Shown in pieces: positions 28,746 through 53,052 of a stretch of DNA of 64,000 nt; the stretch's first letter is position 1, and every line of letters starts with the position of its first letter. Below the pieces are notes generated by a model. That model was given only the letters and a program-made list of their open reading frames with translations, ran no database searches and was not told where the DNA came from. The DNA comes from an uncultured Bacteroidota bacterium (GTDB taxonomy: Bacteria; Bacteroidota; Bacteroidia; B-17B0; Aurantibacillaceae). The stretch spans positions 62,001 to 126,000 of the forward strand of contig CALMVZ010000004.1 in the NCBI GenBank assembly GCA_937873155.1, read 5' to 3'. The position numbers and the translations under genes are program-made.

Positions 28746-28763
28746 TAGTAATATAGCTTGCTG

Positions 28764-28828: not shown

Positions 28829-28867
28829 ATGGTGAAAAAAGCATTGACAAAATAATGACAATTGCAG

Positions 28868-28875
28868 CCCCCCCC
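28868..28875. repeat. Homopolymer C8 tract between adhesins
   Basis: Eight consecutive C on the + strand (G8 in the sense of the adhesin genes) lie about 125 bases upstream of adhesin A's start and just past adhesin B's terminator. It is unusual in this AT-rich DNA. Confidence 0.6.
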
Positions 28876-28883
28876 GGATTTTT

Positions 28884-28919
28884 AAAAAACAACCAAAAAT
28901 TCATCATTTTTGGTTGTTT
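28884..28919 (-). terminator. Terminator after giant adhesin B
   Basis: A perfect 13-bp stem (28887-28899 with 28907-28919) surrounds a 7-base loop and is followed on the - strand by a run of T at 28884-28889. Confidence 0.85.
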
Positions 28920-28955
28920 AAAGCGAGTTTTGAGGGATTATTTGTTAAAAAATAG

Positions 28956-31900: not shown

Positions 31901-32615
31901 AAGGAACGTTCGTACAATTCAGCATTGTAACCTTAAGATATGGTTGATCACAACATGCGTGGCCGGAACCATCCATTTGCGCCATGTAAGCTAATTGAAA
32001 TAACGCGTTAGTAGATGTAACAGGGAATGTTTGCTCGATACGTACACACTCACCAATGTTGATCACGAAGTCATTCATTTGTAAAATTTTTGTTCCACCT
32101 AATGGTGAAGCAGGGATCGTTCCTATCAATTGACCAGTTACGTAAGGCGTATTTCGGATGTAGGCATCTAATCCGCCGGCTGTAGGGCAACATCCGCCCA
32201 TTGTACATGAACTGGTGTTCTGTCCCTGGGAAATTATCCAACCCGAAAGCGTAGCGCCAACTTGTCCTAAAGGTGAAGCTTCAAAATCTTCATTCACACA
32301 AGGTGCAGCATTGATAACAGGTGTAGATCCTTTAAAAGAATCCATTGAAGGAGGGGGACTGTAATGATATTTTTTATTGATGTAATTACGTTTTGCACGG
32401 TACATGTATATTTTATATTCTATACCGAAGAAGCCGCCGCTCAAAGCAGCATTACTATTACCAACTTCGTTGAATCCGCTTAATGAATCCGCAGGAAAAA
32501 CGTAGCTGAGGTATTTCAATCGGGTAGATTGTTTGTCGGTTTGTGAATATAAATCCTGGTTGCAAAATAGCAAGTAAACGAGGATCAAAACCGAAATATT
32601 AAATATCTTTTTCAT
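28956..32615 (-). CDS. Giant T9SS type B surface protein B (type 1 head)
   Basis: The protein has 1219 residues and is a close paralogue of A. It has a signal peptide (MKKIFNISVLILVYLLF), the same type 1 head (SCTMGGCCPTAGG, GHACCDQPY) and the same GPPGSGVTNNPNQT link domain. It has fewer Ig-like repeats (about five against eight), then identical PKD domains and a nearly identical CHU_C domain. The difference in length is whole repeat units, as expected from recombination between repeats. The gene has its own terminator and its own copy of the shared upstream motif, so A and B are probably separate transcripts. It is presumably anchored to or released from the outer membrane via T9SS. Confidence 0.93.
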   Translation of the reverse strand: MKKIFNISVLILVYLLFCNQDLYSQTDKQSTRLKYLSYVFPADSLSGFNEVGNSNAALSGGFFGIEYKIYMYRAKRNYINKKYHYSPPPSMDSFKGSTPVINAAPCVNEDFEASPLGQVGATLSGWIISQGQNTSSCTMGGCCPTAGGLDAYIRNTPYVTGQLIGTIPASPLGGTKILQMNDFVINIGECVRIEQTFPVTSTNALFQLAYMAQMDGSGHACCDQPYLKVTMLNCTNVPLACPSLSVNAPGASCASSVPAGWTTNSSGISWTTAWQMYSLDLTPYLGSCVTIQITASDCTGWGHHGMAFVDCLCSPMTINVNNIPFPVGTAATVSVSACSLGTATVSAPPGLSPYTWNGPPGSGVTNNPNQTFTTTMAGNYTLTMNPPGSCTPIVRIVNLSFAAAPVAGFTTVNSCNSYTITNTGSASPSSQTYSFTGPGAPPSFTTTNATSSITFPAAGTFTITQTITNTVGCTASVQAVVNVPAGPNPALTTPTWTQCLTGNSFVFTATQAAGTHTYNFNPTVGAPASSNANPYGPVSFTAPGTYTITHILTNAGCTATTNSLIVINPDPVVTANNTSPVCTGGNVAFSCTPGGGTYSWTGPNSFASAVQNPTLTGATTAAAGVYTINVTVLGCTGVATTTVVISTPTAAANNTGPYCAGQTIQLNGSAPGTYTWTGPPAYNGSGQNPAIPNSAPAMSGTYNFTVDLGGCFANGSTNVTVNPLPTPVANSNSPFCAGNPLNLTGSAAATYTWNGPNSFQSNLQNPTIPIAQSNAQGTYTLTVIDGNNCTNSVTTVVVISPNPQLLVNNPTLCENSTINLTATAGGATYAWVGPLGFTSSAQNPIIPNSNLGMSGAYSVTLTTAAGCSNTAVANVIINPAPVPTINSNSPICLNDVMNLTAGGGITYSWSGPNGFFSSVQSPTVLASSTSVSGIYQVTVTDANTCSASTTINAVVNPLPVPQITSGPNVGCAPLCVTYTVQSIPTASTAYWTFGNGESANGVLNSIACYNAPGIYTINATVVDVNGCMASATWTAEVYPKPTADFNHAPIKPIINIDGDVVFTDASWGAPIVSWNWYFMNTAQYTSVEQNPTFLYTEPGNYVVALVVKSDKGCSDTLLRPLVVGEDFGIYVPNAFTPNNDEWNNVFQPKGFGIVKYELHIFDRWGEKVFHTKEFTEGWDGTFQGRGTKICKEDVYTWLITCTDVFGKSHELKGHVTLIR

Positions 32616-37315: not shown

Positions 37316-40300
37316 TTATTTCATAAGGGTTACATGGCCTTTCAATTCATGAGATTTACCAAATACACTTGTAGCTTCAATTAACCATGAATAAACCCCA
37401 TTTTCGAGGATGCCGTATTTAACGTCTTTCTTCGATTGCATAGTTCCGTCCCATCCCTGCTCAAAATCCTTGGTAGAGAACACCTTTTCGCCCCAACGGT
37501 CGAAAATGTTGAGTTCATATTTCACTACACCAAATCCTTTTGGCTGGAAGATATCATTCAATCCGTCACCATTTGGTGTAAATGCATTAGGAACATAAAT
37601 TCCAAAGTCTTCACCAACAACTAACGGACGAATTAAAGTATCGTAACAGCCCTGATCACTCTTCACTACTAAAACAACAGGATAGGTTCCCGGTTCAGTA
37701 TAAGCGAAAGTCGGATTTTGTTCAACAGAAGTGTATTGAGCTGTATTCATGAAATACCAGTTCCAGCTAACAATTGTGGCACCCCATGATGCATCAGTGA
37801 ATGTCACATACTGATCTATATTAATGATCGGTTTAATCGGTGCGTGATTGAAATCGGCAACAGGCTGGGCATAAATGTCAATTGTTACAGGAACAACTGT
37901 GCTTGTACAACCAAATGCATCCATCACTGTTAATCCTAAAGTATATTGGGCTGCTTCATCAAAACAATAAGCACCATTCACTGATCCTGTAATTCCTGCT
38001 CCATTCAGGATCCAGTTATAACTTTGAATAGATGAACTTGAACCGGCCGTAAATGTTACACAAGCCGGGACACATCCTTTCGCATTCCCTAAACTGATGT
38101 TTGAATTTGGAATAGGATTCACCATGATGTTTGTGTTAGCAGAATTACTGCAACCATTTGCTGTACCAACAACGCTGACGTTGATGGAAGTGTTGCCGCT
38201 GTATGGATAAGTTGGCCCTGTGATATTGCCCGGCTGCCATACATAAGTATTAGCACCGCTTGCGGTTACCACTGCAGGCTGTCCGGCACATACTGTAGCA
38301 CTTGTTGCTGTTACGGTTGGTTGAGGGAAGAAAGTTAAATTAATAATATCAGTGGCAGGACAATTGAATGCATCTGTTGCGTTAACGGTGTAAATATAAT
38401 TTCCTGCTAAAGTTTCATTTATAGAATATCCCGATGTTGCAGGACCGGATACCCAATTGTAATTATAAGGACCGGTTCCGCCTGCACCAATTGCTGTTAC
38501 ATTTATCGGCGTATTTGCACAAGCAGAGAATGTAGCACTATTGATAGAAACTGAAAATGCTGTTGGTTGAGTAATTTGCGTAGATGCCATGCTTGTACAG
38601 CCATTTGCATCTGTTACAACACAAGTATAGGTTCCCGCAGCTAAATTAGAAGCATTTTGACTTGTTTGTGATGGAATGGTACTCCAGTTATAATTGAAAG
38701 GTCCTGTCCCCACGGTCACATTCACTGTTGAGGTTCCATTGCTCTGTCCGTTACACATTACATTACTTCCAGTGAAATTGAAAACAGGAAGAGGATTAAT
38801 AACAACTGTGTATGTAGTACTTGCTGTGCAACTTCCGGAGCTTACTAATAATGTATAAACTCCGCTTGCTGATGCTGTAACATTATTTATTGTAGGATTT
38901 TGATTTGATCCGGTGTAACCTGGGCCGCTCCATGCATAACTTGCACCACCGCTGCCAAATAAGTTTAAAGTACCACCTGCACAAACAGGACTATTACCTG
39001 CTGCGTTAGGAGTCGGAACAGGTAATACAGATACGTTTGCTGTTGCTGTATTCACACAACCACTGGCATTGGTAACCGTTACTACATATGCACCGGACAT
39101 AGTTAATTGTGCAGAAGGAATATTTGGATTCTGAGCAGCAGATGTGAATCCTCCGGGACCAGACCAGGAGTAGGTCACCCCACCGTTGGATGTTAAATTG
39201 ATGGTTGTGTTAACACAGGTAGTTGGATTATTTACTACAATAGTTGGTAAAGCATTTACAACAACGTTAGTAGTAGCAAAAGCTGAACATCCTTGAGCAT
39301 TGGTTACACTAACTGTATATACGCCACCATTAGTAGTTTGTGCATTTGAAATAGTCGGATTTTGTAAATTAGAGTTGAAAGCAGGACCGGTCCATGTATA
39401 AGAATTAGATGCGCCAACATTTAATTGAATAGTATTTCCTACGCAATAAGGCCCGGTATTACCTGGTGCAACAACAGGAACAGGATTTACAGTTACCATT
39501 GTTGTAGCTGTAGATACACAACCACTCGTCGAAGCAGTCACAGAATACACTCCTGTCATTGCTGTAGTTGAAGACGGAATGTTTGGATTTTGAACACTTG
39601 AAGAATATCCTCCGGGGCCACTCCATGTAAATGAAGTCGCAGCAGGAGTACTCAAATTAATTGTCTGTCCGGCGCAATAAGGTCCTGTATTAGATGCTGT
39701 GCTTGTTGGTGTATTAATTGTTACGTTCACGTTCGCTGTACTTGTACAACCTGCATTTGTAACAGTAACTGAATACACACCTGTATTTACTGCAGAAGTT
39801 ACGGGTATAGTTGGATTTTGTAATGTTGAAGTGAATGCGTTTGGCCCGGTCCACGAATAAGTTCCGCCGCCGGTTGAAGTTAAATTAAGAGGATTACCGG
39901 CACAAATCGGGCTATTGCTTCCGATAACGATCGCAGGTGAAGGATTCACAATTACGTTTGTTGTTGCTACACCTTTACATCCTTGGGCGTTTGTAACGGT
40001 TACTGTATATACACCTCCCATTGCTGTTGTAGCTGCGGGAATAGTCGGGTTTTGCAAATTAGAATTGAATGAATTTGGTCCTGTCCATGTATAAGATGCG
40101 GAAGCTCCAACATTCAATTGAATAGTCGCGCCAGGACAATAAGGTCCTGTATTACCGGCAACAGGAGTTGGATTTGGATTCACGGTAACGTTTGTAACTG
40201 AAGTTGTAGTACAAGCGCCATTTGAAACTGTTAATGTATAACTGCCGGAATGACCAGTTGTAGAAACAGGAATAACCGGATTCTGTGCAGTAGAAGTAAA

Positions 40301-41245
40301 ACCTCCCGGACCTGCCCAGGAATAAGTTCCGCCACCTGTACCAAATAAACCGAAAGCTGTACCTGCACAAACAGGACTGTTATTTGTTGCAGTAATTGTA
40401 GGAGTAGGAACAACACTAACAGTAGCAGTGATAGTTCCTGTTCCGCAACCACCCGGTTTGTTAGCGGTATATGTTGTGGTTGCTGAAGGAGAAACAATTA
40501 AAGTATTGGTAACGCTTGGTCCGGGTGTCCATGTTGCTGTTCCTGTTCCACCGGTTACGATCAAAGTTGCAGTACCACCTGAACAGATGGTTGCGTTATT
40601 TACCGCAAGTGGTGTACCTACAGGAGCACAGGAAATAACGGCCGTGCCGAAAAAGTTAATAGGAACAGTTGCATTAACACTGCTATAGTTTGAAATACAA
40701 AGGATAAATCTGTCACCGCAATTCACATTTAATGCAGCGCCAAAATTGTTGGCAGATGCACCAGCCGGAATTGGGGTTCCTATACCTGTGCCTCCGCTAC
40801 AAGCAGAATTCCAGCAGCATCTTACAGGAGGTAATGTGTTACCGCTGATACCTGCACAAGTTGCAGCTGTATAATTCCAAAGCGTCCAATCATAACAACC
40901 TAATTGCACACCGGGGCCTGCTGCTATTGAGAACATAAGCGTACCTGGTGATTGACAAGTAAAAATTAAAAAATGCGGATTGATCTCACCACCAAGGAAG
41001 CAACCTGAACCTCCCACCGGAACAATCCCCGCAGGGCTGGTTTGAGGATTTGAAACAGAAGTAGCAGTCGTGAAATCAACAAACATTCCGCTGCCGCTGG
41101 AACCAACAAAAGTGACATTGGTGTTACCACAAATAGTAGGTGCTGTTACACAATCCGGAGAACTTGTGGGTTGTGCAAAGAGATCCAAATTTCCCAAAGA
41201 AAAACTTAAAGCTAGTATGAGGGATATTTTTTTAGTTAAATGCAT
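37316..41245 (-). CDS. Giant T9SS type B surface protein D (type 2 head)
   Basis: The protein has 1309 residues with a signal peptide (MHLTKKISLILALSFSLGNLDLFAQ). Its head (about 26-215) differs wholly from that of A, B, C and E: it contains GCYDWTLW, RCCWNSACSGGTG, NCGDRFILCISNYSSV and NFFGTAVISC. This type 2 head is shared only with protein F. Seven Ig-like repeats, SprB-like repeats (CNGQSNGTSTVNVTVGTGPF), two PKD-like domains and CHU_C follow, very like the second half of E. Only one base separates it from the small gene at 41247, whose stop precedes its ATG, so the two are surely co-transcribed and probably coupled in translation. Confidence 0.93.
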   Translation of the reverse strand: MHLTKKISLILALSFSLGNLDLFAQPTSSPDCVTAPTICGNTNVTFVGSSGSGMFVDFTTATSVSNPQTSPAGIVPVGGSGCFLGGEINPHFLIFTCQSPGTLMFSIAAGPGVQLGCYDWTLWNYTAATCAGISGNTLPPVRCCWNSACSGGTGIGTPIPAGASANNFGAALNVNCGDRFILCISNYSSVNATVPINFFGTAVISCAPVGTPLAVNNATICSGGTATLIVTGGTGTATWTPGPSVTNTLIVSPSATTTYTANKPGGCGTGTITATVSVVPTPTITATNNSPVCAGTAFGLFGTGGGTYSWAGPGGFTSTAQNPVIPVSTTGHSGSYTLTVSNGACTTTSVTNVTVNPNPTPVAGNTGPYCPGATIQLNVGASASYTWTGPNSFNSNLQNPTIPAATTAMGGVYTVTVTNAQGCKGVATTNVIVNPSPAIVIGSNSPICAGNPLNLTSTGGGTYSWTGPNAFTSTLQNPTIPVTSAVNTGVYSVTVTNAGCTSTANVNVTINTPTSTASNTGPYCAGQTINLSTPAATSFTWSGPGGYSSSVQNPNIPSSTTAMTGVYSVTASTSGCVSTATTMVTVNPVPVVAPGNTGPYCVGNTIQLNVGASNSYTWTGPAFNSNLQNPTISNAQTTNGGVYTVSVTNAQGCSAFATTNVVVNALPTIVVNNPTTCVNTTINLTSNGGVTYSWSGPGGFTSAAQNPNIPSAQLTMSGAYVVTVTNASGCVNTATANVSVLPVPTPNAAGNSPVCAGGTLNLFGSGGASYAWSGPGYTGSNQNPTINNVTASASGVYTLLVSSGSCTASTTYTVVINPLPVFNFTGSNVMCNGQSNGTSTVNVTVGTGPFNYNWSTIPSQTSQNASNLAAGTYTCVVTDANGCTSMASTQITQPTAFSVSINSATFSACANTPINVTAIGAGGTGPYNYNWVSGPATSGYSINETLAGNYIYTVNATDAFNCPATDIINLTFFPQPTVTATSATVCAGQPAVVTASGANTYVWQPGNITGPTYPYSGNTSINVSVVGTANGCSNSANTNIMVNPIPNSNISLGNAKGCVPACVTFTAGSSSSIQSYNWILNGAGITGSVNGAYCFDEAAQYTLGLTVMDAFGCTSTVVPVTIDIYAQPVADFNHAPIKPIINIDQYVTFTDASWGATIVSWNWYFMNTAQYTSVEQNPTFAYTEPGTYPVVLVVKSDQGCYDTLIRPLVVGEDFGIYVPNAFTPNGDGLNDIFQPKGFGVVKYELNIFDRWGEKVFSTKDFEQGWDGTMQSKKDVKYGILENGVYSWLIEATSVFGKSHELKGHVTLMK

Positions 41246-41246
41246 T

Positions 41247-41729
41247 TTATCTTGTTATTAAGTTACGGATTGAATTAAGAAATGTCGTATTCTGTAAATT
41301 TTCAAAAAGCATGTTACCGTTAGAGTCGAATCCAACATTGTAGCCGGCTGTTTTTCCATTTAATGAAATGATCTGTGCAGCATCAGCAGCATTGATCCTG
41401 ATAAGTGTATTAATGTCATCCTTCTTTAAAGCAATATTACTGGTCACCTGATCATTGTCGGTACAGATAACAATTCCAATTACGCCCTTAGAACCATTTT
41501 TTAATTTTGCATTTTTATAAATAGTGGTGGTATTATTCAGGTCTATATTTCCATCACGGCTGGTCTTATCAGAGGCTGACCAAACATTCACAGCAATGAT
41601 CTTGTCTTTCGGGTCTTCTTTCGTGTAGGTTTTGATATAAGACACCAAAGAATTGTAGTCCAGGGTTTGAGACTTGAGCATAAAACTTAAAAAGCCGAAG
41701 CACAGAAACAAAAGAAGATGTTTTTTCAT
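41247..41729 (-). CDS. Small secreted protein, Cys-less thioredoxin-like, partner of D
   Basis: I chose the ATG at 41729 (MKKHLLLFLCFGFLSFMLKSQ), a signal peptide; an upstream ATG at 41762 adds a non-signal stretch. The mature part has about 140 residues. IIAVNVWSASDKTSRD resembles the strand and active-site helix of thioredoxin/TlpA proteins (xxNFWASWCPPC), but the CxxC is absent. A strand with VIGIVICTDND and a late GFDSNGNMLFENL hairpin fit that fold. It is a paralogue of the protein at 52552: KAKLKNGSxGV in the middle and LITR at the end are shared. I know no named family. The fold assignment is inference. Confidence 0.8.
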   Translation of the reverse strand: MKKHLLLFLCFGFLSFMLKSQTLDYNSLVSYIKTYTKEDPKDKIIAVNVWSASDKTSRDGNIDLNNTTTIYKNAKLKNGSKGVIGIVICTDNDQVTSNIALKKDDINTLIRINAADAAQIISLNGKTAGYNVGFDSNGNMLFENLQNTTFLNSIRNLITR

Positions 41730-41751
41730 TTTTAGGATGTTAGAGACCCTA

Positions 41752-41815
41752 TAAAGGTACAATTAATGCATGTTTTAACCGATTTTCTCACTCAGCCATA
41801 TTGTTACTTCACTAA
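41752..41815 (-). promoter_or_regulatory. Upstream region of the D operon: -7-like box and two TCAC boxes
   Basis: TAAAGGTA (41752-41759; TACCTTTA on the - strand) lies 23 bases upstream of the ATG. CTCACTCA (41787-41794) and TTCACTAA (41808-41815) are 21 bases apart, and the first lies 27-28 bases past the -7-like box. Confidence 0.6.
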
Positions 41816-41835
41816 ATCGCAAAATTCTATAAATG

Positions 41836-41858
41836 AAAAAAGGGGGCCGAAACCCCCT
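41836..41858 (-). terminator. Terminator after giant adhesin E
   Basis: AGGGGG (41841-41846) pairs with CCCCCT (41853-41858) around CCGAAA, and on the - strand a run of six T follows. Confidence 0.85.
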
Positions 41859-41885
41859 GATTTATAGATAAATTTAGTCTTGATC

Positions 41886-44800
41886 TTATTTCATCAAAGT
41901 CACGTGGCCTTTCAATTCATGAGATTTTCCGAATACGCTTGTACAGTTAATTAACCATGTATAAGTGTCTTCTTTAATGATCTCAGAACCTTTGCGGCCC
42001 TGGAAAGTACCATCCCAACCTTCAGTGAATTCTTTCGTTGAGAATACTTTTTCACCCCAACGGTCGAAGATGTTCAATTCATATTCCACAACACCAAATC
42101 CTTTTGGCTGGAAGATATCATTCACGCCATCACCATTCGGTGTAAATGCATTCGGCACATAGATCCCGAAATCTTCACCTACAACTAAAGGTCTGATGAT
42201 AGTATCTGTACATCCATGATCGCTCTTAACAACTAAAGCAACCGGATAAGTACCGGGCTCTGTGTACATGAATTGAGGATTTTGCTCAATAGAAGTGTAT
42301 TGTGCTGTGCTCATGAAATACCAGTTCCATGATACGATATTAGCACCCCATGAAGCATCAGTGAATGTTACAAATGGATCCTGGTTGATAATTGGTTTAA
42401 TAGGAGCGTGATTGAAATCAGCAACCGGCTGAGGATGTATATTAACGATCACAGGAGTAGCATTGCTTGTACACCCATAAGCATCCATTACAGTTAATCC
42501 CAAGGTATATTGAGCCGCTTCATCAAAACAATACGCGCCGTTTTGAGCACCTGTAATCCCTACACCATTCAACATCCAGCCATAACTTGTAATACTTGAA
42601 CTTCCAGTTGCAGTAAAGTTCAGACAAGAAGGAACACAACCGGTAATGTTACTTACACTGATGTTAGCATTTGGAGTCGGATTAACAAATACACTTGCAT
42701 TTGCTGAGTTACTACAACCGTTAGAAGTACCAACAACAGTCACAGCGATAGAAGTACTGCCGCTGTATGGATAAGTAGGCCCGGTGATATTACCCGGCTG
42801 CCATACATAAGTTGTTGCACCGCTTGCTTGTAATACTGCATTGCCTTGACCTGCACAAACTGTTGCGCTTGTGGCAGAAACCGTAGGCTGTGCGAAGTAA
42901 GTTAAAGTAATGTTTGCAGTTGCAGGACAATTGAACGCATCAACCGCATTAACTATATAATTATAGTTTCCGGCAACAGTTTCTGTAATTGAATAAGCAC
43001 TTGTAGACGGACCTGCTACCCAATTGTAAGTGTATGGACCTGTTCCGCCACTTCCATTCGCGTTGATGTTGATCGGGTTGTTAGCACAAGCTGCTAATGT
43101 TGTACTGCTGATCGCAACATTAAATTGAGTAGGCTGCGTAATTTGTGTTGAAGCCATACTTGTACAACCATTCGCATCCGTTACAGTACAAGTATAAGTT
43201 CCCATTGCCAGGCCGGTTGCATTTTGTGAGGTCTGAACAGGACTTGTGCTCCAGTTATAATTGAATGGTCCTGTACCTACCGTTACGTTCACAGTTGATG
43301 TTCCGTTACTTTGTCCGAAACACAACACATTACTTCCTGTAAAGTTGAATACAGGTAAAGGGTTAATTAATACAGTGAATGTTGTGCTTGCAGTACAGCT
43401 TCCTAAACTGGCTAATAAAGTATACACGCCGCTTGCAGATGCATTCACGTTATTGATAGTTGGGTTTTGAGTTGGTCCGGTATAACCTGGTCCGCTCCAT
43501 GCGTATGTTGTTCCGCCGCTTCCGAATAAATTTAAAATACCGCCTGCACAAACAGGACTGTTGCTTGTAATATTAGGTGTAGGTAAAGGGAATACATTAA
43601 CACTTGCATTAGCAGTGTTCACGCAACCATTCGCGTCCGTTACAGTTACAACATATGTTCCCGACATAGTTAATTGCGCCGCAGGAATATTTGGATTCTG
43701 AGCAGTTGAAGTAAATCCGCCAGGGCCAGACCATGCATAAGCAGTACCGCCTGTAGCAGTTAATCCAATAGTTGTATTCACACAATTAGTAGGGTTATTC
43801 ACTGTAATAAGAGGTAAAGCATTTACTACAACGTTCGCATTAGTTGAATTCACACAACCATTAGCATCTGTAACACTCAGAACATAGTTACCTGCATTTG
43901 ATGTTGCAGAAGTTCCTATGTTAGGTGTTGCGGAATTAGAACTAAATGAACCAGGGCCTGTCCACGTATAAGTTGTACCACCTGTTCCTGTAAAGTTAAT
44001 TGGTTGTCCAACGCAAACAGGGCTATTGCTGACAATGTTTGGAGTTGGAAGCGGATTAACAAGAACGTTCGTAGTTGCAGAAGCAGTACATGTTCCTATA
44101 GAAACGATCACAGTATATGTACCCGACATTAATGTTGTAGCAGAAGGTTGGGTTGCATTCTGTGAATTGGAGCTGTATCCGCCCGGGCCGCTCCATGTAT
44201 AAGATGAAGCAGTTGCTGCATTTAAATTGATTGTAGTTCCTGCACAATAAGGCCCTGTGTTTGCTGCAGAAGTTGTTGGCGTTGTAACAACAACATTCAG
44301 GGTTCCTGTACTTGAACAACCTAATGCAGTTACAGTTACTGTATATACTCCTGCCTCAGCAGTCGTAGCATTTGGAATGTTCGGATTTTGTAATGCAGAT
44401 GTAAATGCATTTGGTCCGCTCCATGAATAAGTAGTTCCGCCGCTTGAAGTTAAATTGATCGGAGTATTGATACAAACAGGACTATTGCTTCCCATTACAA
44501 CAACCGGACTTGGATTAACAACAACGTTAGTTACTGCAGTATTCGTACAACCATTAGCATCAGTAACGGTAACAGTATAGTTACCCGAATTAGCTACAAC
44601 TGCATTTGTTTGAGTTGGGTTTTGAGCATTTGAACTGAATGAACTTGGGCCACTCCATGTATAAGTACTGAATGCACCTACACTTAACGAGATCGTATTA
44701 CCCGGACAATATGCACCAGTATTATTAGCTACCGGCGTTGGTAATGGATTTACAAGAACGTTTGTAGTTGCAGCAGCAGTACAAGTACCAACTGAAACTG

Positions 44801-47800
44801 TAACACTATAAACACCACTCATACCTGTTGTTGAAGCAGGAATTGTTGGGTTTTGTGCAGTGGAAGTAAATCCTAAAGGCCCTGTCCAGTTATAAGTAGT
44901 AGCAGCAGGCGTACTTAAGTTAATAGTTTGTCCGGCACAATACGCCCCTGTATTAGCAGCAGAGGTTGTCGGGCTTAATACCGATACACTCACTGTTCCG
45001 GTATTTGTACAACCCAATGCAGTAACTGTTACAGTATAAATACCCGCATTAGCAGCTGTCGCATTAGGGATAGTAGGATTTTGTAATGCAGATGTGAAAG
45101 CGCTTGGCCCGCTCCATGCGTAACCTGTTCCACCACCTGAAGTAAGGTTTAATGCTGTATTCAAACAGATAGGGCTATTGCTTCCGATCACAACAACAGG
45201 TGTAGGGTTAACTACCACAGTAGTTGTTGCACTGTTAACACAACCATTAGCATCAGTAACAGTAACCACATAGTTACCACCGTTTGTTGTCTGCGCATTT
45301 GTTTGTGTAGGGTTTTGTGCGTTCGAAGTAAATGCACTTGGTCCGCTCCAAGTATAAGTAGTAAATGCACCAACGTTCAACTGTATTGTATTACCGGGAC
45401 AATAAGGTCCGGTATTTGTAGGCGCTGGAGTTGGTAATGCATTAATTACAACGTTTGTCGTTGCATTTGCTGTACAAGTACCTGCTGAAACCAATACACT
45501 GTAAGTTCCTGCCATTGCAGCTGTAGCATTAGCAATTGTCGGATTTTGTGCATTAGAAGTAAATCCACCAGGACCGCTCCATGTATAAGATGTAGCAGAA
45601 GGCGTATTTAATTGTATGGTAGAACCTACACAAAAAGGTCCGGTGTTAGAAGCACTTGTGGTAGGTGTGAGGACCGTTACGTTAACTGTTCCTGTATTTG
45701 TACAACCTAAAGCTGTTACGGTTACTGTATAAACACCCGCATTCACAGCAGTAGCAGCTGCAACAACCGGATTTTGAACCGCCGACGTGAACGCGTTCGG
45801 TCCGCTCCATGAATAACCGGTGCCACCACTTGCTGTTAAGTTGATATTAGAATTCAAACAAACCGGGCTGTTACTTCCAACTACAACTGTCGGAGTTGGA
45901 TTAACTACCACGTTAGTAATTGCAGTATTTGTACAACCCGTGGCATTTGTTACGGTAACCGTATAATTACCACTGTTTGTTGTCTGGGCATTGGTTTGAG
46001 TTGGATTCTGCGCATTCGAAGCAAATGAACTTGGCCCACTCCATGTATAAGTATTGAATGCACCAACATTCAACTGAATGGTATTGCCGGGACAATAAGG
46101 TCCGGTATTTGTTGGAGCAGGAGCAGGTAAAGGATTTACAACAACGTTTGTCGTTGCAGTTGCTTTACATAAACCTGTTGTAGTAGTTACGGTATATACA
46201 CCTGACATTGCAGTCGTAGAATTAGCAATGGTTGGATTCTGATTATTTGAAGTGAATGCGCTAGGACCTGTCCAGGTATAAGATGTACCTGCCGGCGTGT
46301 TTAAACTAATGGTTTGTCCGGCGCAATACGGTCCGGTATTAGAAGCTGATGTGGTAGGTGTAGTAACCGTTACATTAATTGTTGCAGTTGCTTTACAACC
46401 TGCTGCATTTGCAATTGTGACAGTGTACACTCCCGCCATTGTAGATGTTGCACTCGCGATGGTTGGACTCTGGACACTTGAAGTAAATCCTCCCGGTCCG
46501 CTCCAGGTATAACTTGTTGCAGCAGTGGTAGAGAAAGTGAGAGGTGATCCTGCACAGACAGGACTATTACTTGTTATGGTAGGACTGGCCAGTGGTGTAA
46601 CGACAACTGACGTGACGGCTGCAGCTGTACACGATCCGTTTCCGATCATAACAGTATAATTTCCGCTTGTAGAGGCAGTAGTGGTAGGATTTTGTACTGA
46701 AGAGCTGAATGAACTTGGTCCTGTCCAAGTGTAACTGCCGGCAGCAGTTGGAGTATTTAACTGAATAGTTGCACCCGGACAATAAGGTCCGGTGTTAGAT
46801 GCAGAAACTGTTGGTGTATTCACAACCTGAACAGTTGTAGAAGCTTGTGCCCAACAACCTCCTGCCCATGATACATAGAACCAATAAACTCCTGAAGAGG
46901 TTGTTTGCGCATTTGAGATCGTTGGTGTTAATGTGGAACTGAAGTTGGTCCATGTCCATGTTGAATTATACCAATACGACCATGAAATATTTGTTGAAGA
47001 AGTAACAGCATTTAACTGAATGGTCTGTCCAACACAATATGGCCCCGTATTAGTTACAGTTACCGATGGTACCGCCGGCATTGTAATATTTACAGTTGTA
47101 GTAGTGATACAGCCAAAGTTGTTTACTGTCATAGTATATGTACCCTGGTTGCCTGTTGTAAAGTTATTTACCGCAACAGGAGTACCAACTCCCGTCCAGC
47201 CTAATGGTCCGGCCCATGTGATGCTTCCTGGTCCGCCTACACCTGTTAATACAGCCTGACCACCCGAACATGCAGGAGGTGTTGCAGTAGCACTTGCAGT
47301 TGGTTTCGCATTAACTACCACAACAGATTGTGTAGAAGAAACACAACCCGCCGAATTCACAGTATGAGTAACAGTGTAATTACCGGGCGCTGTAAAGCTT
47401 ACCGGTCCATATGGATTTGTATTTCCTGTAGGAGGGGAGCCGACCGTTGGATTAAAATTGTAAGTATGCGTTCCCGTTGTTGTTGTTGCGTTGAATGTAA
47501 ATGCATTTCCTGTTAAACATTGGGTGAATGAAGGAGATGCTGTAAATGCAGGGCTCGGTCCGGGAGGTGTAGTTATCACCATCGAGAATGTTGCAGGACA
47601 ATTCTGCGGGTTCGTGACCGTTTGGATTATTGTGTACGTTGTAGAAGGCGCGAAATTGACGACACTGGTTGCGTTCGTTGTTGTGAAAGAAGTTGGAGCG
47701 CCCGGACCGACAAAGGAATAGGTCTGGACGGAAGGTGGCCCTGTTCCTGTATTCGTTAACGTATAGGTTGTACAACTATTGGCGGAAGTAAATCCGGCAG

Positions 47801-49037
47801 TTGGAAATGTACCAAATTGTAAGTTCACTGTTTTTGTAATTGGTGTACAGATGCCAATAGGATTCATTGTTAAGGTGTAGTTACCCGGCATTGTAGTTGT
47901 AATGGTTTGATTTGGATTAGCAGTAATACCACTACCCGGAGGGCCGTTCCAAGTATATGGCCCGAGTCCCGGAGGGGCGACCATTGTTCCTGTTGTGACA
48001 CCACATGCAGCTACTGCTACTACTGCATTACCGGCAGGGAATTGAATATTGTTAACAGTAACTGTCATTGGTAAACACTGGAAATCGAAAAACGCATAAC
48101 CATAATGCGCCCAACCGTCACAATCACCAACTGTTACTTTGATTGTGACACAAGAGCCTAAATAAGGAGAAAGATCAATTGCTTTAATGATCCAGTTTGG
48201 AGTGTAAGAAATATTTCCACTTGTAGTCCAGCCTACAGCACTAACAGTAGCGCAAGATGGGCCGGGAGGCGTGATACTAACTTGCGGACAAGCTAAAATA
48301 TTATTCATGCAATCCAATAATTCAACACGGATGTAAGGCTGGTCACAACATGCGTGACCTGAACCATCCATTGCCGCTTTATAGGCAAACTGAAATAACG
48401 CGTTTGAAGCAGTAACAGGAAATGTTTGCTGGATACGAACAACCTCACCTTTCATAGTAATGTTATCGTTCATCTGGATAACTTTTGTTCCACCAAACGG
48501 AGACGCAGGAATAACACCTAAAGGAGCCGGTGCGGTCCAAGGTGTGGTACGGATCCATGCATCAGTACTTCCTGCGTTCGGACAACAACCTGCCTGTGTA
48601 CACGAACCGTTAATACCTGAATTTTGTCCCCATGATGCTTGCCATCCTAACAAGCTTGTACCAATAGTACCAACAGTAGTTGTGGAAGTTGATGAAGGTG
48701 AAGATTCGAAATCTTCATTTACACAAGGTGCTGCGTTAATACTTGGAGTTGATGGCCCTCCTTTTGCATTTGAACCCATGGTTGTTCCATAAGTATAACC
48801 GTATTTCTTATTAATGAAATCACGTTTCTGACTATACATGATAACATGATATTCAGAACCAAAGAATCCGCGGTCCAATGCTTCTTTATTGGCAGCCGCT
48901 TCATCAAATCCCTTCAATGAATCTGAAGGAAAAATGTAAGTTAAATATTTAAACGGAGCCTGTGCTTTTACAACGTTAGTATTGAAAATAAAAAGTGTAA
49001 AAAGACTTAAAATGAGAGGCAGGGATTTATTCTTCAT
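41886..49037 (-). CDS. Giant T9SS type B surface protein E, largest (type 1 head)
   Basis: I chose the ATG at 49037 (MKNKSLPLILSLFTLFIF), a signal peptide cut near VVKAQ; an ATG at 49088 would add 17 residues before it. The protein has about 2380 residues. The type 1 head (to about 330) is nearly that of C. About 15 clear Ig-like units follow, part of them in a three-unit super-repeat of 231 codons present three times (44481-46562). SprB-like repeats, two PKD-like domains (ADFNHAPIKPIINQD) and CHU_C (YVPNAFTPNGDGVNDIFQPKGF to HVTLMK) end it. The tail is closer to D than to A or B, so head and tail have been shuffled among paralogues. Confidence 0.94.
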   Translation of the reverse strand: MKNKSLPLILSLFTLFIFNTNVVKAQAPFKYLTYIFPSDSLKGFDEAAANKEALDRGFFGSEYHVIMYSQKRDFINKKYGYTYGTTMGSNAKGGPSTPSINAAPCVNEDFESSPSSTSTTTVGTIGTSLLGWQASWGQNSGINGSCTQAGCCPNAGSTDAWIRTTPWTAPAPLGVIPASPFGGTKVIQMNDNITMKGEVVRIQQTFPVTASNALFQFAYKAAMDGSGHACCDQPYIRVELLDCMNNILACPQVSITPPGPSCATVSAVGWTTSGNISYTPNWIIKAIDLSPYLGSCVTIKVTVGDCDGWAHYGYAFFDFQCLPMTVTVNNIQFPAGNAVVAVAACGVTTGTMVAPPGLGPYTWNGPPGSGITANPNQTITTTMPGNYTLTMNPIGICTPITKTVNLQFGTFPTAGFTSANSCTTYTLTNTGTGPPSVQTYSFVGPGAPTSFTTTNATSVVNFAPSTTYTIIQTVTNPQNCPATFSMVITTPPGPSPAFTASPSFTQCLTGNAFTFNATTTTGTHTYNFNPTVGSPPTGNTNPYGPVSFTAPGNYTVTHTVNSAGCVSSTQSVVVVNAKPTASATATPPACSGGQAVLTGVGGPGSITWAGPLGWTGVGTPVAVNNFTTGNQGTYTMTVNNFGCITTTTVNITMPAVPSVTVTNTGPYCVGQTIQLNAVTSSTNISWSYWYNSTWTWTNFSSTLTPTISNAQTTSSGVYWFYVSWAGGCWAQASTTVQVVNTPTVSASNTGPYCPGATIQLNTPTAAGSYTWTGPSSFSSSVQNPTTTASTSGNYTVMIGNGSCTAAAVTSVVVTPLASPTITSNSPVCAGSPLTFSTTAATSYTWSGPGGFTSSVQSPTIASATSTMAGVYTVTIANAAGCKATATINVTVTTPTTSASNTGPYCAGQTISLNTPAGTSYTWTGPSAFTSNNQNPTIANSTTAMSGVYTVTTTTGLCKATATTNVVVNPLPAPAPTNTGPYCPGNTIQLNVGAFNTYTWSGPSSFASNAQNPTQTNAQTTNSGNYTVTVTNATGCTNTAITNVVVNPTPTVVVGSNSPVCLNSNINLTASGGTGYSWSGPNAFTSAVQNPVVAAATAVNAGVYTVTVTALGCTNTGTVNVTVLTPTTSASNTGPFCVGSTIQLNTPSATSYTWSGPGGFTSNAQNPTIANATAAMAGTYSVLVSAGTCTANATTNVVINALPTPAPTNTGPYCPGNTIQLNVGAFTTYTWSGPSAFTSNAQNPTQTNAQTTNGGNYVVTVTDANGCVNSATTTVVVNPTPVVVIGSNSPICLNTALNLTSGGGTGYAWSGPSAFTSALQNPTIPNATAANAGIYTVTVTALGCTNTGTVSVSVLSPTTSAANTGAYCAGQTINLSTPAATTYNWTGPLGFTSTAQNPTIPASTTGMSGVYSVTVSVGTCTAAATTNVLVNPLPTPVANNTGAYCPGNTISLSVGAFSTYTWSGPSSFSSNAQNPTQTNAVVANSGNYTVTVTDANGCTNTAVTNVVVNPSPVVVMGSNSPVCINTPINLTSSGGTTYSWSGPNAFTSALQNPNIPNATTAEAGVYTVTVTALGCSSTGTLNVVVTTPTTSAANTGPYCAGTTINLNAATASSYTWSGPGGYSSNSQNATQPSATTLMSGTYTVIVSIGTCTASATTNVLVNPLPTPNIVSNSPVCVGQPINFTGTGGTTYTWTGPGSFSSNSATPNIGTSATSNAGNYVLSVTDANGCVNSTNANVVVNALPLITVNNPTNCVNTTIGLTATGGTAYAWSGPGGFTSTAQNPNIPAAQLTMSGTYVVTVTDANGCVNTANASVNVFPLPTPNITSNSPVCAGGILNLFGSGGTTYAWSGPGYTGPTQNPTINNVNASASGVYTLLASLGSCTASTTFTVLINPLPVFNFTGSNVLCFGQSNGTSTVNVTVGTGPFNYNWSTSPVQTSQNATGLAMGTYTCTVTDANGCTSMASTQITQPTQFNVAISSTTLAACANNPININANGSGGTGPYTYNWVAGPSTSAYSITETVAGNYNYIVNAVDAFNCPATANITLTYFAQPTVSATSATVCAGQGNAVLQASGATTYVWQPGNITGPTYPYSGSTSIAVTVVGTSNGCSNSANASVFVNPTPNANISVSNITGCVPSCLNFTATGSSSITSYGWMLNGVGITGAQNGAYCFDEAAQYTLGLTVMDAYGCTSNATPVIVNIHPQPVADFNHAPIKPIINQDPFVTFTDASWGANIVSWNWYFMSTAQYTSIEQNPQFMYTEPGTYPVALVVKSDHGCTDTIIRPLVVGEDFGIYVPNAFTPNGDGVNDIFQPKGFGVVEYELNIFDRWGEKVFSTKEFTEGWDGTFQGRKGSEIIKEDTYTWLINCTSVFGKSHELKGHVTLMK
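44481..46562 (-). repeat. 693-bp super-repeat, three copies, inside adhesin E
   Basis: The same landmark (the GSNSPxC codons, a ctattgctt-like sequence on the + strand) recurs at 44481, 45174, 45867 and 46563, giving periods of 693, 693 and 696 bases. Each copy codes three successive Ig-like units: GSNSPVC...ALGC, NTGPYCAG...GTC and NTGPYCPGNTIQLNVGAF...ANGC. Copies differ at many synonymous sites. Confidence 0.9.
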
Positions 49038-49058
49038 TTTACTATGTTTTAGACTATA

Positions 49059-49122
49059 TAAATGTATAATTTGAAGAAAATAAATCAAGAGTATTCACTC
49101 ATTCAGAGAGACAGTTCACTAA
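49059..49122 (-). promoter_or_regulatory. Upstream region of adhesin E: -33/-7 boxes and two TTCAC boxes
   Basis: TAAATGTA (49059-49066; TACATTTA on the - strand) lies 22 bases upstream of the ATG; CAA (49086-49088; TTG on the - strand) sits at the -33 position. ATTCACTCA (49093-49101) and TTCACTAA (49115-49122) are 21 bases apart. Confidence 0.6.
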
Positions 49123-49241
49123 TTAATAAGACTGTTTTTTAGGATATTAACAAGTTATTAAGAATCTGAAGGTCTTCTAAGTGCTTAATTATCAATATAA
49201 AAATTAAAGAATTCTTTAGCTTTTCTTAACTTTTAGAAAAT

Positions 49242-49274
49242 AAAAAACCCTGAAGTACGAAGACTTCAGGGTTT
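49242..49274 (-). terminator. Terminator after giant adhesin F
   Basis: AAACCCTGAAGT (49245-49256) and ACTTCAGGGTTT (49263-49274) form a perfect 12-bp stem with a 6-base loop and a T-run on the - strand. The core CCCTGAAGT/ACTTCAGGG is shared with the terminator at 24338. Confidence 0.92.
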
Positions 49275-49294
49275 AAATTTATTTGGTTTAAGAA

Positions 49295-52200
49295 TTACCT
49301 GAATAAACTGATAGTTCCTTTTTCTTCGTAATCTTTAAGGTCTTTACCTTTCGCGTTTAAGATGTAGAAGTAAGTTCCAGCAGGCACATCTTTATTGCTA
49401 AAATTCTTACCATCCCACGAGATGTTTCCTTTATCTGCTGTTACATCGTACATCTTAACTCCCCAACGGTCAAAGATCGTACAAGTGATCTCAGTAAGGT
49501 TGGTTGTTTGTAACATGAACACATCATTCACCCCGTCACCATTTGGTGTGAATACGTTAGGTGTCTCAAGAGCAGATGGCAGATCAACATGTATCACAGC
49601 AGTTGCCGTTCCGATACAGGTATTCGTGCCGGTATTTTGAGTAATAACCAGGAATACAGTGTAATTACCTGCTGATTGATAGGTAGAACTTCCGTTAGGA
49701 CCGCCACTATTAGAATAAGATGAAGAAGAGCTCGTGGTGGTCACAGAGATACCATTACCATAATTCCATGTTGTAGTCACAGTGCCTGATGAAACATTCT
49801 GTAAAACAGTTGTGTTATCAAAGAAGGCAGACATCGGAGCAAATCCTGTATTTGGATCCACATTGAAACTTACGCCGGGTAGAACTCCGCCGTTGTCAAT
49901 TACAGCTACCGAGTTAGTAGCCCTGCAGCCATTAACAGTATTTAAAATTGTAACGTAATAATTTCCCGGTGTATTTGCAGTTGTGCTGTAACAACTGATA
50001 CCGCCCGGACAACTCATACCTGCTAAAGGAGGACTGCTCCAGGTATATGAAAATGTTCCGGCTGCAGCATTAGAACCTGTATGGCCTGCCATGATGGTAG
50101 CTGTAGTGGCGCCGCAATTCAGATTTATTGGTGCAATTGCAAATGTTGCAGGAGGTGTTACGTTCAATTGAACAGTTGTTGTAGCAACGTTCGTACAACC
50201 ATTGATGGCATTCTGATAGGTCATTGTATAAGGACCGGGTAAACACATCAGCGCTCCTAATGTTGTTGCGGTTTGTGTCGGAGGCGGTGATGTAAATGTA
50301 AATGTGATCGGTGTTGTATTAGAAGGCACACTGTTATTTGGTGAGAATGCCACACAAGGGTTCGCGCAGGTAATGGCTGTTGGTGTGAACACAACCGTAT
50401 AAGGTGGAACAGCAACATCTTTATAGAACCGGACTAATTTCCTTCCCACACAACCATTATTCGGATTCATCGCAAGTACAGTATAGTTGGTTGATGAAGG
50501 CATTGTAGCTGTAACATTCACCATAGATATGGTTGCTGTCTGGTTACTCTGAATTAAATTCGGTGGAATGGTCCAGCTGTAATTACTTGCAGGATACATC
50601 GGATTAGAAATACCGGTAACAACTATACTTGGAGTAAAACAGTTGATGGTATAACTATCAGGTGATAAACTTGCCAGAGTTGCAGTTGAAGTAGGTGCCG
50701 GACGTAACGTATCTATACCGATAGTTATGGTTTGAGTAATGGAACATCCTAATCCGTCTTTTATAGTGATCGCGTACTGACCGGGGACATTCGCACCTGT
50801 TCCGCAAACTGTATAACCCCCGGTTGCAGGCATTGTACTAACGTTTGTGGTTAAATTAGTCCATGTATAACTCGTAGGGCCCAAAACTACACTCGTGTTA
50901 ACGTTCAATGGCAAACATGGTTTTGTACATGTCACACTGAAGCCGCCTAACACCGAAGTAACAGTAAGTGTAGGAACAACTGTACTTGAAGTAACAGCAA
51001 CAGTTTGTGTATTCGTACAACCGGTTATAACATTTGTAAATGTGATCGCATAAGTTCCCGGTGTTCCTGCACATAATATAACTGTACCTCCCGAAGGACC
51101 AACCAATGGAACAGGCGGATTGCTTGTGATATCATACCATGTACCGAATATATTAGTAGTAGAAGTTGTTGTTGCTGTAAATTGTTTACATGGCTGGCCA
51201 CAACCAATAGTTTGTGTCGCAAGAGGTGAAACAGACATTGAAGGCGCTGTCAGATCTTGGCCAACCGAGATCGTTTGTGTGTCGGTACAGGAACTAACGG
51301 TCTGGTCCTGACCCACGACTGTATAAACACCGGCGGCAGTAGCGCTAAAAGCACTTCCGGTTACATTTCCCGGCATCCAGGTATATGTCACATTTGATAA
51401 AGTAGAAGTATTAGTTGCGTTTAAAACAACTGAAGTATTTATACAGGTAATTTGTCCGCCTCCACTTACTGAAAAACTGATAGGGGCAGGAGCGAAGATA
51501 CTTGTAGTAGAAGTAGCAGTACAGCCGATAGCGTCAGTGGCAGTTAAAGAGTACACGCCTGTTGTTAAATTAGAAGCTGATACGCTGGTACTTCCGCCCG
51601 GTGACCATGAATAAGTAAAGCCGCCAACACCACCTGTAACATTTGCTGTTGAAGAACCTAAAGTGGAAGGACAACTTCCGTTTGTATTAGAAAATGAGAT
51701 ACTGATTGGAGGTGAAACAACAACTGCAGACGTACCGGTTAAAACACCACAGGCATTCGCAGCAGTTAAAGTGTAAATAGTTGTAGACGCCGGCGACACT
51801 GTAATAGAAGGCGCTGTTTGTCCGCCCGGTTGCCAGGTATACGTTGTTCCCGGAGAAGAAGGTACAGATAAAGTCGCAACAGCACCGAAGCAGATCGATG
51901 GACTGTTAATTGATAAAGTACTTGACAACGGACTACAGGATACAACAGCGGTTCCGAAAAAATTTAAAGGAACCAAAGTGCTCACACTACTGTAATTTGA
52001 AAAACACATAATGAATCTGTCGCCGCAATTTGCATTTATAGGCGCGCCAAAATTATTCTGAAACGCACCTGCAGGAAGATTGGCAGGAGAAGATAAACCT
52101 GTTCCACCGGAACAAGCTACATTCCAGCAACAGCGGATAGGCGCCAGAGTATTTGTATTGATACCTGTACATGAGGAAGCATTGTAAACCCACATGCTCC

Positions 52201-52540
52201 AGTCGTAACAACCGGATTGCGCACCCGGGCCTGTACCTGCACCCATTGAGAATTCGAGGGTTCCCGGTGTTTGAATATTAATGATCATCCAGGTTGGATT
52301 TAGTTCGCCTGAATATAAACAACCGCCTCCTCCGGGAGGTATCATGGCAGCAGTACCCGGCAATGGATTTGATACAGATGACGCTGTTGTAAAATCAATG
52401 AAACCTGACCCGGCAGGTGCTACTGAAAATGAAGCGCTGGTACAAATATTGACCGCAGCGGTGCAATCTTTAGCGGTAACCTGCGCTTGTGTTTTTGTAA
52501 AAACAACCAGCGCTAAACAAGATAATAAATACTTTTTCAT
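49295..52540 (-). CDS. T9SS type B surface protein F (type 2 head)
   Basis: The protein has 1081 residues with a signal peptide (MKKYLLSCLALVVFTKTQAQ). The type 2 head (about 22-215) matches that of D: GCYDWSMW, RCCWNVACSGGTG, NCGDRFIMCFSNYSSV and NFFGTAVVSC. The stalk is different: divergent Ig-like and SprB-like units such as TYTWQPGG and GSSTANVTGGVGGFTYSWSPGGS, with many Cys-containing TNTQTVAV modules and few YxWxGP repeats. One PKD-like domain (VDPNTGFAPMSAFFDN) and a CHU_C domain (VFTPNGDGVNDVFML to GTISLFR) end it. It begins 11 bases after the small gene at 52552, the same arrangement as D with 41247. It is the least similar in stalk and tail of the six. Confidence 0.93.
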   Translation of the reverse strand: MKKYLLSCLALVVFTKTQAQVTAKDCTAAVNICTSASFSVAPAGSGFIDFTTASSVSNPLPGTAAMIPPGGGGCLYSGELNPTWMIINIQTPGTLEFSMGAGTGPGAQSGCYDWSMWVYNASSCTGINTNTLAPIRCCWNVACSGGTGLSSPANLPAGAFQNNFGAPINANCGDRFIMCFSNYSSVSTLVPLNFFGTAVVSCSPLSSTLSINSPSICFGAVATLSVPSSPGTTYTWQPGGQTAPSITVSPASTTIYTLTAANACGVLTGTSAVVVSPPISISFSNTNGSCPSTLGSSTANVTGGVGGFTYSWSPGGSTSVSASNLTTGVYSLTATDAIGCTATSTTSIFAPAPISFSVSGGGQITCINTSVVLNATNTSTLSNVTYTWMPGNVTGSAFSATAAGVYTVVGQDQTVSSCTDTQTISVGQDLTAPSMSVSPLATQTIGCGQPCKQFTATTTSTTNIFGTWYDITSNPPVPLVGPSGGTVILCAGTPGTYAITFTNVITGCTNTQTVAVTSSTVVPTLTVTSVLGGFSVTCTKPCLPLNVNTSVVLGPTSYTWTNLTTNVSTMPATGGYTVCGTGANVPGQYAITIKDGLGCSITQTITIGIDTLRPAPTSTATLASLSPDSYTINCFTPSIVVTGISNPMYPASNYSWTIPPNLIQSNQTATISMVNVTATMPSSTNYTVLAMNPNNGCVGRKLVRFYKDVAVPPYTVVFTPTAITCANPCVAFSPNNSVPSNTTPITFTFTSPPPTQTATTLGALMCLPGPYTMTYQNAINGCTNVATTTVQLNVTPPATFAIAPINLNCGATTATIMAGHTGSNAAAGTFSYTWSSPPLAGMSCPGGISCYSTTANTPGNYYVTILNTVNGCRATNSVAVIDNGGVLPGVSFNVDPNTGFAPMSAFFDNTTVLQNVSSGTVTTTWNYGNGISVTTTSSSSSYSNSGGPNGSSTYQSAGNYTVFLVITQNTGTNTCIGTATAVIHVDLPSALETPNVFTPNGDGVNDVFMLQTTNLTEITCTIFDRWGVKMYDVTADKGNISWDGKNFSNKDVPAGTYFYILNAKGKDLKDYEEKGTISLFR

Positions 52541-52551
52541 GGGGATAAATA

Positions 52552-53052
52552 TTAGCGGGTTATTAATGATAAGAATAATTTAAAGCAATCTTCTTTTTTA
52601 AGGTCTTTAGAAATGATAGTGCCATCATTCCCGATCACGAGACTGCCCGGTTTATGATCAAAATAATTTACCAGTGATTTATATTTCTGGGTCGAATTTT
52701 CGAGATTGTACTTTGAAACAATAGAGTCTCTCTTTGTACTAAGGACCCAGGTATAAAGATCAGGATCCAGACAGATATTTATAAAGACCACGCCTTGCGA
52801 ACCGTTCTTTAATTTTGCCTTATGATAAATATCACTCACGCGTAAGAACTCCTTATTGTTTTCACGCGATTCAATTGAACTGGATTGCCAAACATTTATG
52901 AAGAGGATCTTATTTTGGAGTTCTGCTTCAGGAATAAGATCTAAAGCTGTATTCCTTATATCAGTTCCGTTGAGTGTTTGTGCGTTCAACGAAAAATTGA
53001 ACAGGCCTAAGGATACAAGTAATAGAAATAATTTTATTTGTGTTTTTTTCAT
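52552..53052 (-). CDS. Small secreted protein, Cys-less thioredoxin-like, partner of F
   Basis: The protein has 166 residues, signal peptide MKKTQIKLFLLLVSLGLFNFSLNAQ. KILFINVWQSSSIESRENN stands where thioredoxin-like proteins have the strand and WCxxC helix, with serines in place of cysteines. VVFINICLDPD and PGSLVIGNDGTIISKDL resemble the following strand and the cis-Pro/beta-hairpin region. It is a paralogue of the 41247 protein (common IYxxAKLKNGSxGV and final LITR). Because both copies directly precede a type 2 head protein, a role in folding, export or surface binding of that head is likely but unproven. The upstream region lacks a clear copy of the shared two-box motif. Confidence 0.82.
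   Translation of the reverse strand: MKKTQIKLFLLLVSLGLFNFSLNAQTLNGTDIRNTALDLIPEAELQNKILFINVWQSSSIESRENNKEFLRVSDIYHKAKLKNGSQGVVFINICLDPDLYTWVLSTKRDSIVSKYNLENSTQKYKSLVNYFDHKPGSLVIGNDGTIISKDLKKEDCFKLFLSLITR

Follow-up and report, generated by a model that had tools for sequence, protein, structure and literature searches.

A thioredoxin-like protein without redox cysteines is encoded directly ahead of giant T9SS type B proteins and goes with their type 2 head

Introduction

In a 64,000-nucleotide stretch of DNA from an uncultured Bacteroidota bacterium (hereafter the window), two genes for giant T9SS type B proteins are each directly preceded by a gene for a small, secreted-looking protein, which raises the question of whether the small protein is a dedicated partner of the giant and, if so, which part of the giant it serves. 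To our knowledge, how giant T9SS adhesins of thousands of residues stay export-competent before their C-terminal signal exists is an open question. The dedicated factors for type B substrates that are described in two studies act on the C-terminus (PMC12618676, PMC9143113).

Results

Two modules of the window share their layout and their head

The two modules (Table 1) had been proposed in a sequence-only reading of the window, and their layout held in both pairs in coordinates, strands and spacing: the stop of small gene A is separated from giant A by 1 base and that of small gene B from giant B by 11 bases, small gene B being the first gene past a terminator-like stretch. Each of the signatures picked out in that reading, GCYDW, RCCWNxACSGGTG and NCGDRFI in the heads and AKLKNGSxGV and the LITR end in the small proteins, was present in both pairs. 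The type 2 heads of giants A and B are 58% identical, and both giants carry a C-terminal CHU_C/TIGR04131 sorting domain of T9SS type B that scores above cut-off. The four giants with a type 1 head (24393, 28956, 32783 and 41886) had been described as having no such partner, and no small ORF lies in front of any of them, the longest ATG run within their 132-254 nt of upstream sequence being 38 codons. On another contig of the same genome a third small gene adjoins a third type 2 head (3/3 paired); three weaker small-gene matches in this genome are two other thioredoxin-like proteins (L004, L005) and one unrelated ORF (L006). A PADLOC anti-phage search of the four module proteins returned no match.

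Table 1. Features of the two modules and their surroundings, and loci outside the order with another small secreted protein in the upstream position
Feature	Position	Strand	Description
Small gene A	41247-41729	minus	160 aa from ATG 41729; ORF open from TTG 41762; thioredoxin-related, Asp/Ser at catalytic positions, C-terminus LITR
Giant A	37316-41245	minus	1309 aa, T9SS type B, type 2 head
Giant A, signal peptide-like stretch and type 2 head	40636-41245	minus	
Small gene B	52552-53052	minus	166 aa, signal peptide-like N-terminus, thioredoxin-related, C-terminus LITR
Giant B	49295-52540	minus	1081 aa; type 2 head at about residues 20-203, stalk, sorting domain
Giant B, signal peptide-like stretch and type 2 head	51931-52540	minus	
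Type 1-head giant	41886-49088	minus	2400 aa as listed from TTG; no partner gene
Loci with another small secreted protein upstream	L180-L186, L188, L190-L193, L195-L201, L210-L212		class Bacteroidia

In giant A, a type 2 head is joined to a stalk and sorting domain that are type 1-like, yet the small gene is still in place. Its last 350 aa are 77.8% identical to the type 1-head giant 41886, with which it has stalk and sorting domain in common, and 27.5% identical to giant B. Because giant A keeps the small gene despite its type 1-like stalk, the small gene within the window goes with the head and not with the stalk or the sorting domain. This is support and not proof, because a recombination event in the stalk would leave the adjoining small gene and head linked even in the absence of selection. 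Two of the type 1-head giants, 24393 and 28956 (window 24393-32615), are 98.3% identical over their last 350 residues, which reads as a sign of recent duplication or gene conversion.

Full-length small genes are always paired within the order

We next considered 87 genomes of the window's order, which represent one family and ten genera. All 87 genomes were searched with two profiles, one (A1) made from 31 small proteins and the other (A2) from 22 heads, and the best 65 small-protein matches and best 88 head matches of the resulting lists were compared by genome position. All 60 full-length small-family matches (E <= 2.2e-16) in these genomes lie directly upstream of a type 2 head on the same strand, the spacing from small gene to head gene ranging from -4 to 112 nt in the 60 re-extracted pairs. 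The next five matches (E from 5.4e-16 up), the strongest of the weaker list, were checked by place, and none is paired (0/5). At the level of genomes (n = 87), 45 contain both genes, none the small gene only, four the head only and 38 neither (Fisher p = 1.7e-20, a value that treats the genomes as independent although they are related).

Since the inputs of both profiles were the paired genes themselves, this procedure favours finding pairs. In a search with a single small protein, blind to heads, the small gene preceded a head in 31 of 32 inspected loci (L001-L003, L014-L042), the exception, L042, being an ordinary TlpA-like protein. With 3/3 small genes paired in the window's own genome and 60/60 in the order, the pairing is not due to chance. 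The claim of a dedicated pair is supported from the side of the small gene, which was never found without a type 2 head in the order. The converse does not hold: of the strong heads in the order (n = 86, E <= 2.3e-58), 26 lack a small gene against 60 that have one, and heads without it occur across the class. The small gene thus goes with the head, and the head does not need the small gene.

By sequence, the small protein is a TlpA relative that has lost the redox cysteines

Judged by profile comparison, the small protein is a member of the thioredoxin superfamily of the TlpA-like/Thioredoxin_8 kind. Profile A1 matched the PDB entries 3fw2 (3.9e-7), 3fkf (1.5e-6) and 4fo5 (9.9e-6), and the aligned stretch of 3fw2, WASWNDS, belongs to a solved structure that likewise has no CxxC there. 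Pfam Thioredoxin_8 recognized 15 of 31 small proteins at E <= 0.1, the best at 2.3e-8; of the window proteins, B scored below cut-off (E 0.12) and A gave no match. When the small family was aligned by hhalign with the WCRPC TlpA-like protein of its own genome plus two relatives, the probability was 98.7 over 119 columns, and the AKLKNG signature is partly inherited from this ordinary TlpA-like protein. The thioredoxin-like character ascribed to the small protein is therefore upheld as kinship by PDB, Pfam and hhalign profiles, but structure prediction did not settle the fold. From a three-row alignment (window and L126), AlphaFold2 gave a mean pLDDT of 56.5 and a pTM of 0.46 for the small protein; with this low-confidence model, Foldseek returned nothing at E <= 0.001 (first row 1.0e-3, a C-Ala domain; TlpA 4txo at 0.026 and 4grf at 0.030), and the best VIA-align matches, up to Z 7.1, were to other folds. 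The head, predicted from three rows of the same origin (window and L126), reached a mean pLDDT of 40.9, likewise too low to decide its fold.

None of the 60 small proteins has a CxxC or a cysteine at either catalytic position, and the description of the small protein as lacking redox cysteines was borne out throughout. Serines in place of the thioredoxin CxxC, as first read, occur in B (Ser59, Ser62), while A has serine only at the second position and Asp at the first; among the 60 homologues, 53 have Ser at the second position and 52 have Asp or Asn at the first. A proline at the cis-Pro position is found in 11 of the 60, B among them. Bacteroidota oxidoreductases of the TlpA-like/Thioredoxin_8 kind share the W, R, N and KLKNG positions with the small family, which differs from them in having no CxxC, mostly no cis-Pro and a LITR-like end, and in always standing beside a giant in the searched genomes. 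At the N-terminus, a Gln at position 25, just past the signal-peptide-like stretch, is present in 58/60 small proteins, so that this region looks like a signal peptide ending before Gln.

The short or overlapping spacing of the two genes would suit a small ORF that serves only the expression of the giant, as a leader or through translational coupling, its protein being functionless. We regard this as very improbable, given that dN/dS was 0.06-0.13 in four pairwise comparisons (one with saturated dS), that the last residue is Arg in 60/60 small proteins, that W, SR, N and KLK.G positions are conserved, and that different secreted folds hold the same position outside the order (see below). The small protein is under purifying selection as a protein.

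No T9SS sorting domain above cut-off was found on small proteins A and B. A likeness to CHU_C in 2 of 31 small homologues (best E 0.0013, 19.2 bits against a cut-off of 27), which covers about 50 residues round an FDxxGNxVYEN-like string, was judged to be chance. In two genomes, a Cys-less thioredoxin-like protein of about 406 aa with a C-terminal extension (L004, 245-1465, minus; L042, 254-1480, minus) adjoins an ordinary TlpA-like (WCxxC) gene.

Heads without a small gene keep their core cysteines

The surroundings of 20 of the 26 unpaired strong heads were read, and a quick head tree, with some long branches, was made from 60 paired and 21 unpaired rows, the latter including the second, weaker head of G014. 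Nine unpaired heads, each belonging to a long giant, group in a single clade that sits within the paired heads; the others are scattered, two of them beside the paired head of the same genome. For one unpaired head (L097) the contig ends 293 bases upstream. Since 26 of 86 strong heads in the order are unpaired, the nine-giant clade included, the head can do without a linked copy of the small gene. As read from this tree, whose root is uncertain, the distribution is more suggestive of the linked gene having been lost, or the head reused, than of a late gain of the small gene.

Upstream of the unpaired head at L096 (G043) we noted a 157-aa ORF whose second half resembles the small family by eye; it has no profile match (1.9 bits) and was left uncounted. 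Separately, the heads at L113, L114 and L115 lie in open frames of only about 280-300 aa, with no stalk and no small-family gene in front, and the head protein at G041:C2:179249 has a likewise short open frame (about 280-300 aa) without a stalk. L112 (G014) contains tandem copies of a 132-aa ORF and a head protein with another domain in front.

The partner had also been tied to the cysteine richness of the head, and this tie was not supported in that form: six core head cysteines are present in 60/60 paired heads and in 17-20 of 21 unpaired ones, and eight heads of the unpaired clade of nine have all six. Cysteine content does not separate heads with a partner from heads without. The cysteines of GCYDW and CSGGTG (head residues 111 and 143 in the numbering of giant 49295) are both present in 16 and both absent in 44 of the 60 paired heads, with corresponding counts of 2 and 19 among 21 unpaired heads, and the second Cys of RCCW occurs in 8/60 paired heads. 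Because these cysteines are limited to 16/60 and 8/60 paired heads, the GCYDW, CSGGTG and RCCW signatures do not define the head family, for which, as had been supposed, no named family was found in the searches made.

Residues 111 and 143 co-occur strictly, as disulfide partners would, and this all-or-none pattern (n = 60) would suit a small protein that acts on another step without a lasting complex with the head, for instance by guarding head cysteines from a periplasmic oxidoreductase or by handing the giant to a PorP/SprF-type shuttle. The shuttle variant gains from the finding that cognate PorP/SprF shuttles are required by those type B substrates that have been tested in F. johnsoniae (PMC12618676, PMC9143113), and from the genome itself, in which none of the 19 PorP/SprF (PF11751) genes lies in the window or adjoins its giants, leaving these unlinked to a shuttle gene. 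Such shuttles, however, recognise the C-terminal domain, whereas the small gene goes with the head. The guarding variant is weakened in turn, as the six core cysteines are retained in most unpaired heads and 44/60 paired heads lack the disulfide-like pair. Overall we consider action on another step improbable.

Outside the order, other small secreted proteins precede strong heads

In the wider class we sampled 395 genomes, in each of which only a few first-look candidates were scored (at most nine for the small family and at most seven for the head). Among the candidates scored, the small family appeared in ten genomes, all in the window's order, and a head match (E <= 1e-8) in 149/395 genomes. 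At one locus (L119, G462; 1486-1959, plus) a Cys-less TlpA relative (E 4.8e-16) has no head neighbour; it carries SxxS for CxxC (WASWSKAS), keeps the cis-Pro and has no LITR end.

We then read the upstream regions of all 36 strong heads outside the order that this head search listed (E <= 5.3e-39), of which one (L208) was cut by a contig end, leaving 35. A small ORF with a signal-peptide-like start was counted if it lay -40 to +60 bases from the start of the giant, a rule that was fixed after the first twelve regions, and related genomes were counted apart. By this measure, a different small secreted protein is encoded directly upstream of 22 of the 35 strong heads that are uncut (Table 1), 19 by the scripted rule and three (L188, L196, L200) after start codons had been corrected by eye; L189 looks alike and was left uncounted, the start of its giant being unclear. 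As controls, 18 proteins with weaker heads were hand-picked from the same list, and 16 remained once one without a giant ORF and one that was cut had been removed. Only one of these 16 (L230) has an upstream small secreted ORF, and L227 just misses at 69 bases (strong heads versus weak-head controls, Fisher p = 1.7e-4; 1.5e-3 with the 19 alone). No match to the small thioredoxin-related family was found among the 679 ORFs of these 52 outside-order loci.

Most of the outside-order upstream proteins resemble HMA metal domains. A 14-row HMA-like profile (A6) matched 1p6t in the PDB (2.7e-10) together with many HMA chains of copper ATPases; taken singly, each 1p6t domain scores weakly (i-Evalue 4e-4 and 0.014), and seven members scanned singly gave no Pfam HMA match. 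None of the 14 rows has a CxxC after residue 22, and where 1p6t has its GMTCxxC loop the aligned part of the profile contains no cysteine. In a search of 390 class genomes with the HMA-like core, all nine strong matches were known pairs, and two weaker matches (G206) also precede large secreted-looking proteins; a match with a real CxxC (G150) is followed by no such protein.

A third family (A7) showed no PDB match at E below 0.1 and, for the two members scanned, none in Pfam. Its class search yielded 27 further matches, and in 20 of the 21 loci read (L238-L258) the small gene precedes a large secreted-looking protein; part of these loci lie in the window's own order (G006, G035, G041). A CxxC is present in 2/7 A7 rows, and several third-family members carry one (e.g. 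CPECP). Of eight downstream proteins scanned, seven from third-family and one from HMA-like loci, six have a domain above the Pfam cut-off, of CUB, PPC, GEVED or T9SS-associated galactose-binding-like type. It may thus be a general layout in the class for a giant with a beta-sandwich head to be preceded by a small exported protein.

The small partner evolves faster than the head

Distances between small proteins follow those between heads (Mantel r 0.66, reached by 0/2000 permutations), and when partners were swapped within the 14 genomes that have at least two modules, 0/5000 swaps reached the observed agreement. Such agreement is expected from linkage alone. In only 20/60 modules do the small protein and the head point to the same nearest relative in another genome. 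With a median difference of 0.67 against 0.51 for the head, the small partner is the faster-evolving of the two.

This variability is one of the features that would suit a surface subunit. In that model the small protein, having bound the head in the periplasm, would leave the cell with it through the T9SS and become the tip of the adhesin, adding or shaping ligand binding. Being N-terminal, the head lies at the end away from the anchored C-terminus; outside the order the same position is held by other small folds (HMA-like and third family); and the invariant C-terminal Arg (60/60) suggests a structural contact. Against this, a subunit of this kind needs T9SS carriage of a protein on which no sorting domain was found, and no fusion of giant and partner was seen among 432 ORFs of at least 330 aa at the loci examined, many of which are cut by locus ends. 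We therefore hold a tip subunit to be possible, though rather unlikely.

Discussion

Our preferred reading, tentatively held and just short of an even chance, is that each pair works as a unit of two genes, one for a giant T9SS type B surface protein and the other for a partner dedicated to the N-terminal head of that giant. An ancestral TlpA-type thioredoxin would have lost its CxxC, and usually its cis-proline too, and would have been retained by selection as a protein. We infer that the two genes form one transcript, from which the small partner would be made first and would probably cross the inner membrane by its signal peptide. Since the small gene comes first, the partner could already be in the periplasm when the head emerges, and it has been published that gene order can help complex assembly (PMC4742563). 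There it would most likely bind the head as the giant emerges and hold or escort it until the sorting domain is made and the T9SS takes over, given that the export signal of the giant is C-terminal and comes last.

The sequence-only reading had left the choice between chaperone, export adaptor and surface subunit open; the dedicated pairing was supported, the roles themselves are inferred, and the argument from cysteine richness was not supported as stated. The best fit is a role in holding or escorting the head, followed by that of a co-exported tip subunit, and the faster evolution of the partner and the other folds found in its place are no less compatible with a surface subunit than with a chaperone.

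Like the modules of the window, SprB-SprF and PG1035-PorP combine a type B surface protein with a dedicated, often genetically linked partner. The SprF/PorP partner is an outer-membrane beta-barrel that is commonly encoded directly downstream and serves the C-terminal domain (PMC12618676, PMC9143113); the window partner, unlike it, is a small exported protein that is encoded upstream and linked to the N-terminal head. Orphans without an adjacent shuttle gene also exist among the known type B substrates (PMC12618676). Because of these orphans, the missing PorP/SprF neighbour does not exclude the window giants from type B. In Flavobacterium johnsoniae, accessory genes beside a giant gliding adhesin offer a likeness in gene layout: Rhodes et al. 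2011 reportedly placed sprC and sprD in a sprC-sprD-sprB-sprF operon. SprC moves on the gliding track (PMC12635249).

For an upstream, N-terminus-linked, redox-dead thioredoxin partner of a type B giant we found no precedent in the open-licence literature, nor was a report found there of a T9SS with a heavy-metal-associated domain partner. Giant type B substrates with linked helpers as such are known. TraF of the F plasmid is not known to have a CxxC. It is a periplasmic protein of F-plasmid type IV secretion with a thioredoxin-like domain and a proposed chaperone ability, needed for the assembly of a surface structure (PMC7555446); it belongs to another secretion system and is likened to the small protein by description.

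Taken together, these results raise a wider and slightly more tentative possibility, namely that Bacteroidia have a general and so far undescribed two-gene surface module in which a small exported partner comes first and is followed by a giant T9SS protein whose N-terminal beta-sandwich head it serves. Unrelated proteins would have come to occupy the partner position on at least three occasions. Two of these would derive from folds that normally carry a CxxC, thioredoxin and the HMA metal domain, both having lost it, so that former thiol or metal handlers would now do nothing but bind giant adhesins. A small partner tied to the N-terminus and encoded by a gene of about 500 bases offers a direct handle on whether the head is escorted or gains an extra subunit and, if the reading is true, would point to a role for several small exported protein families that now have no assigned function.
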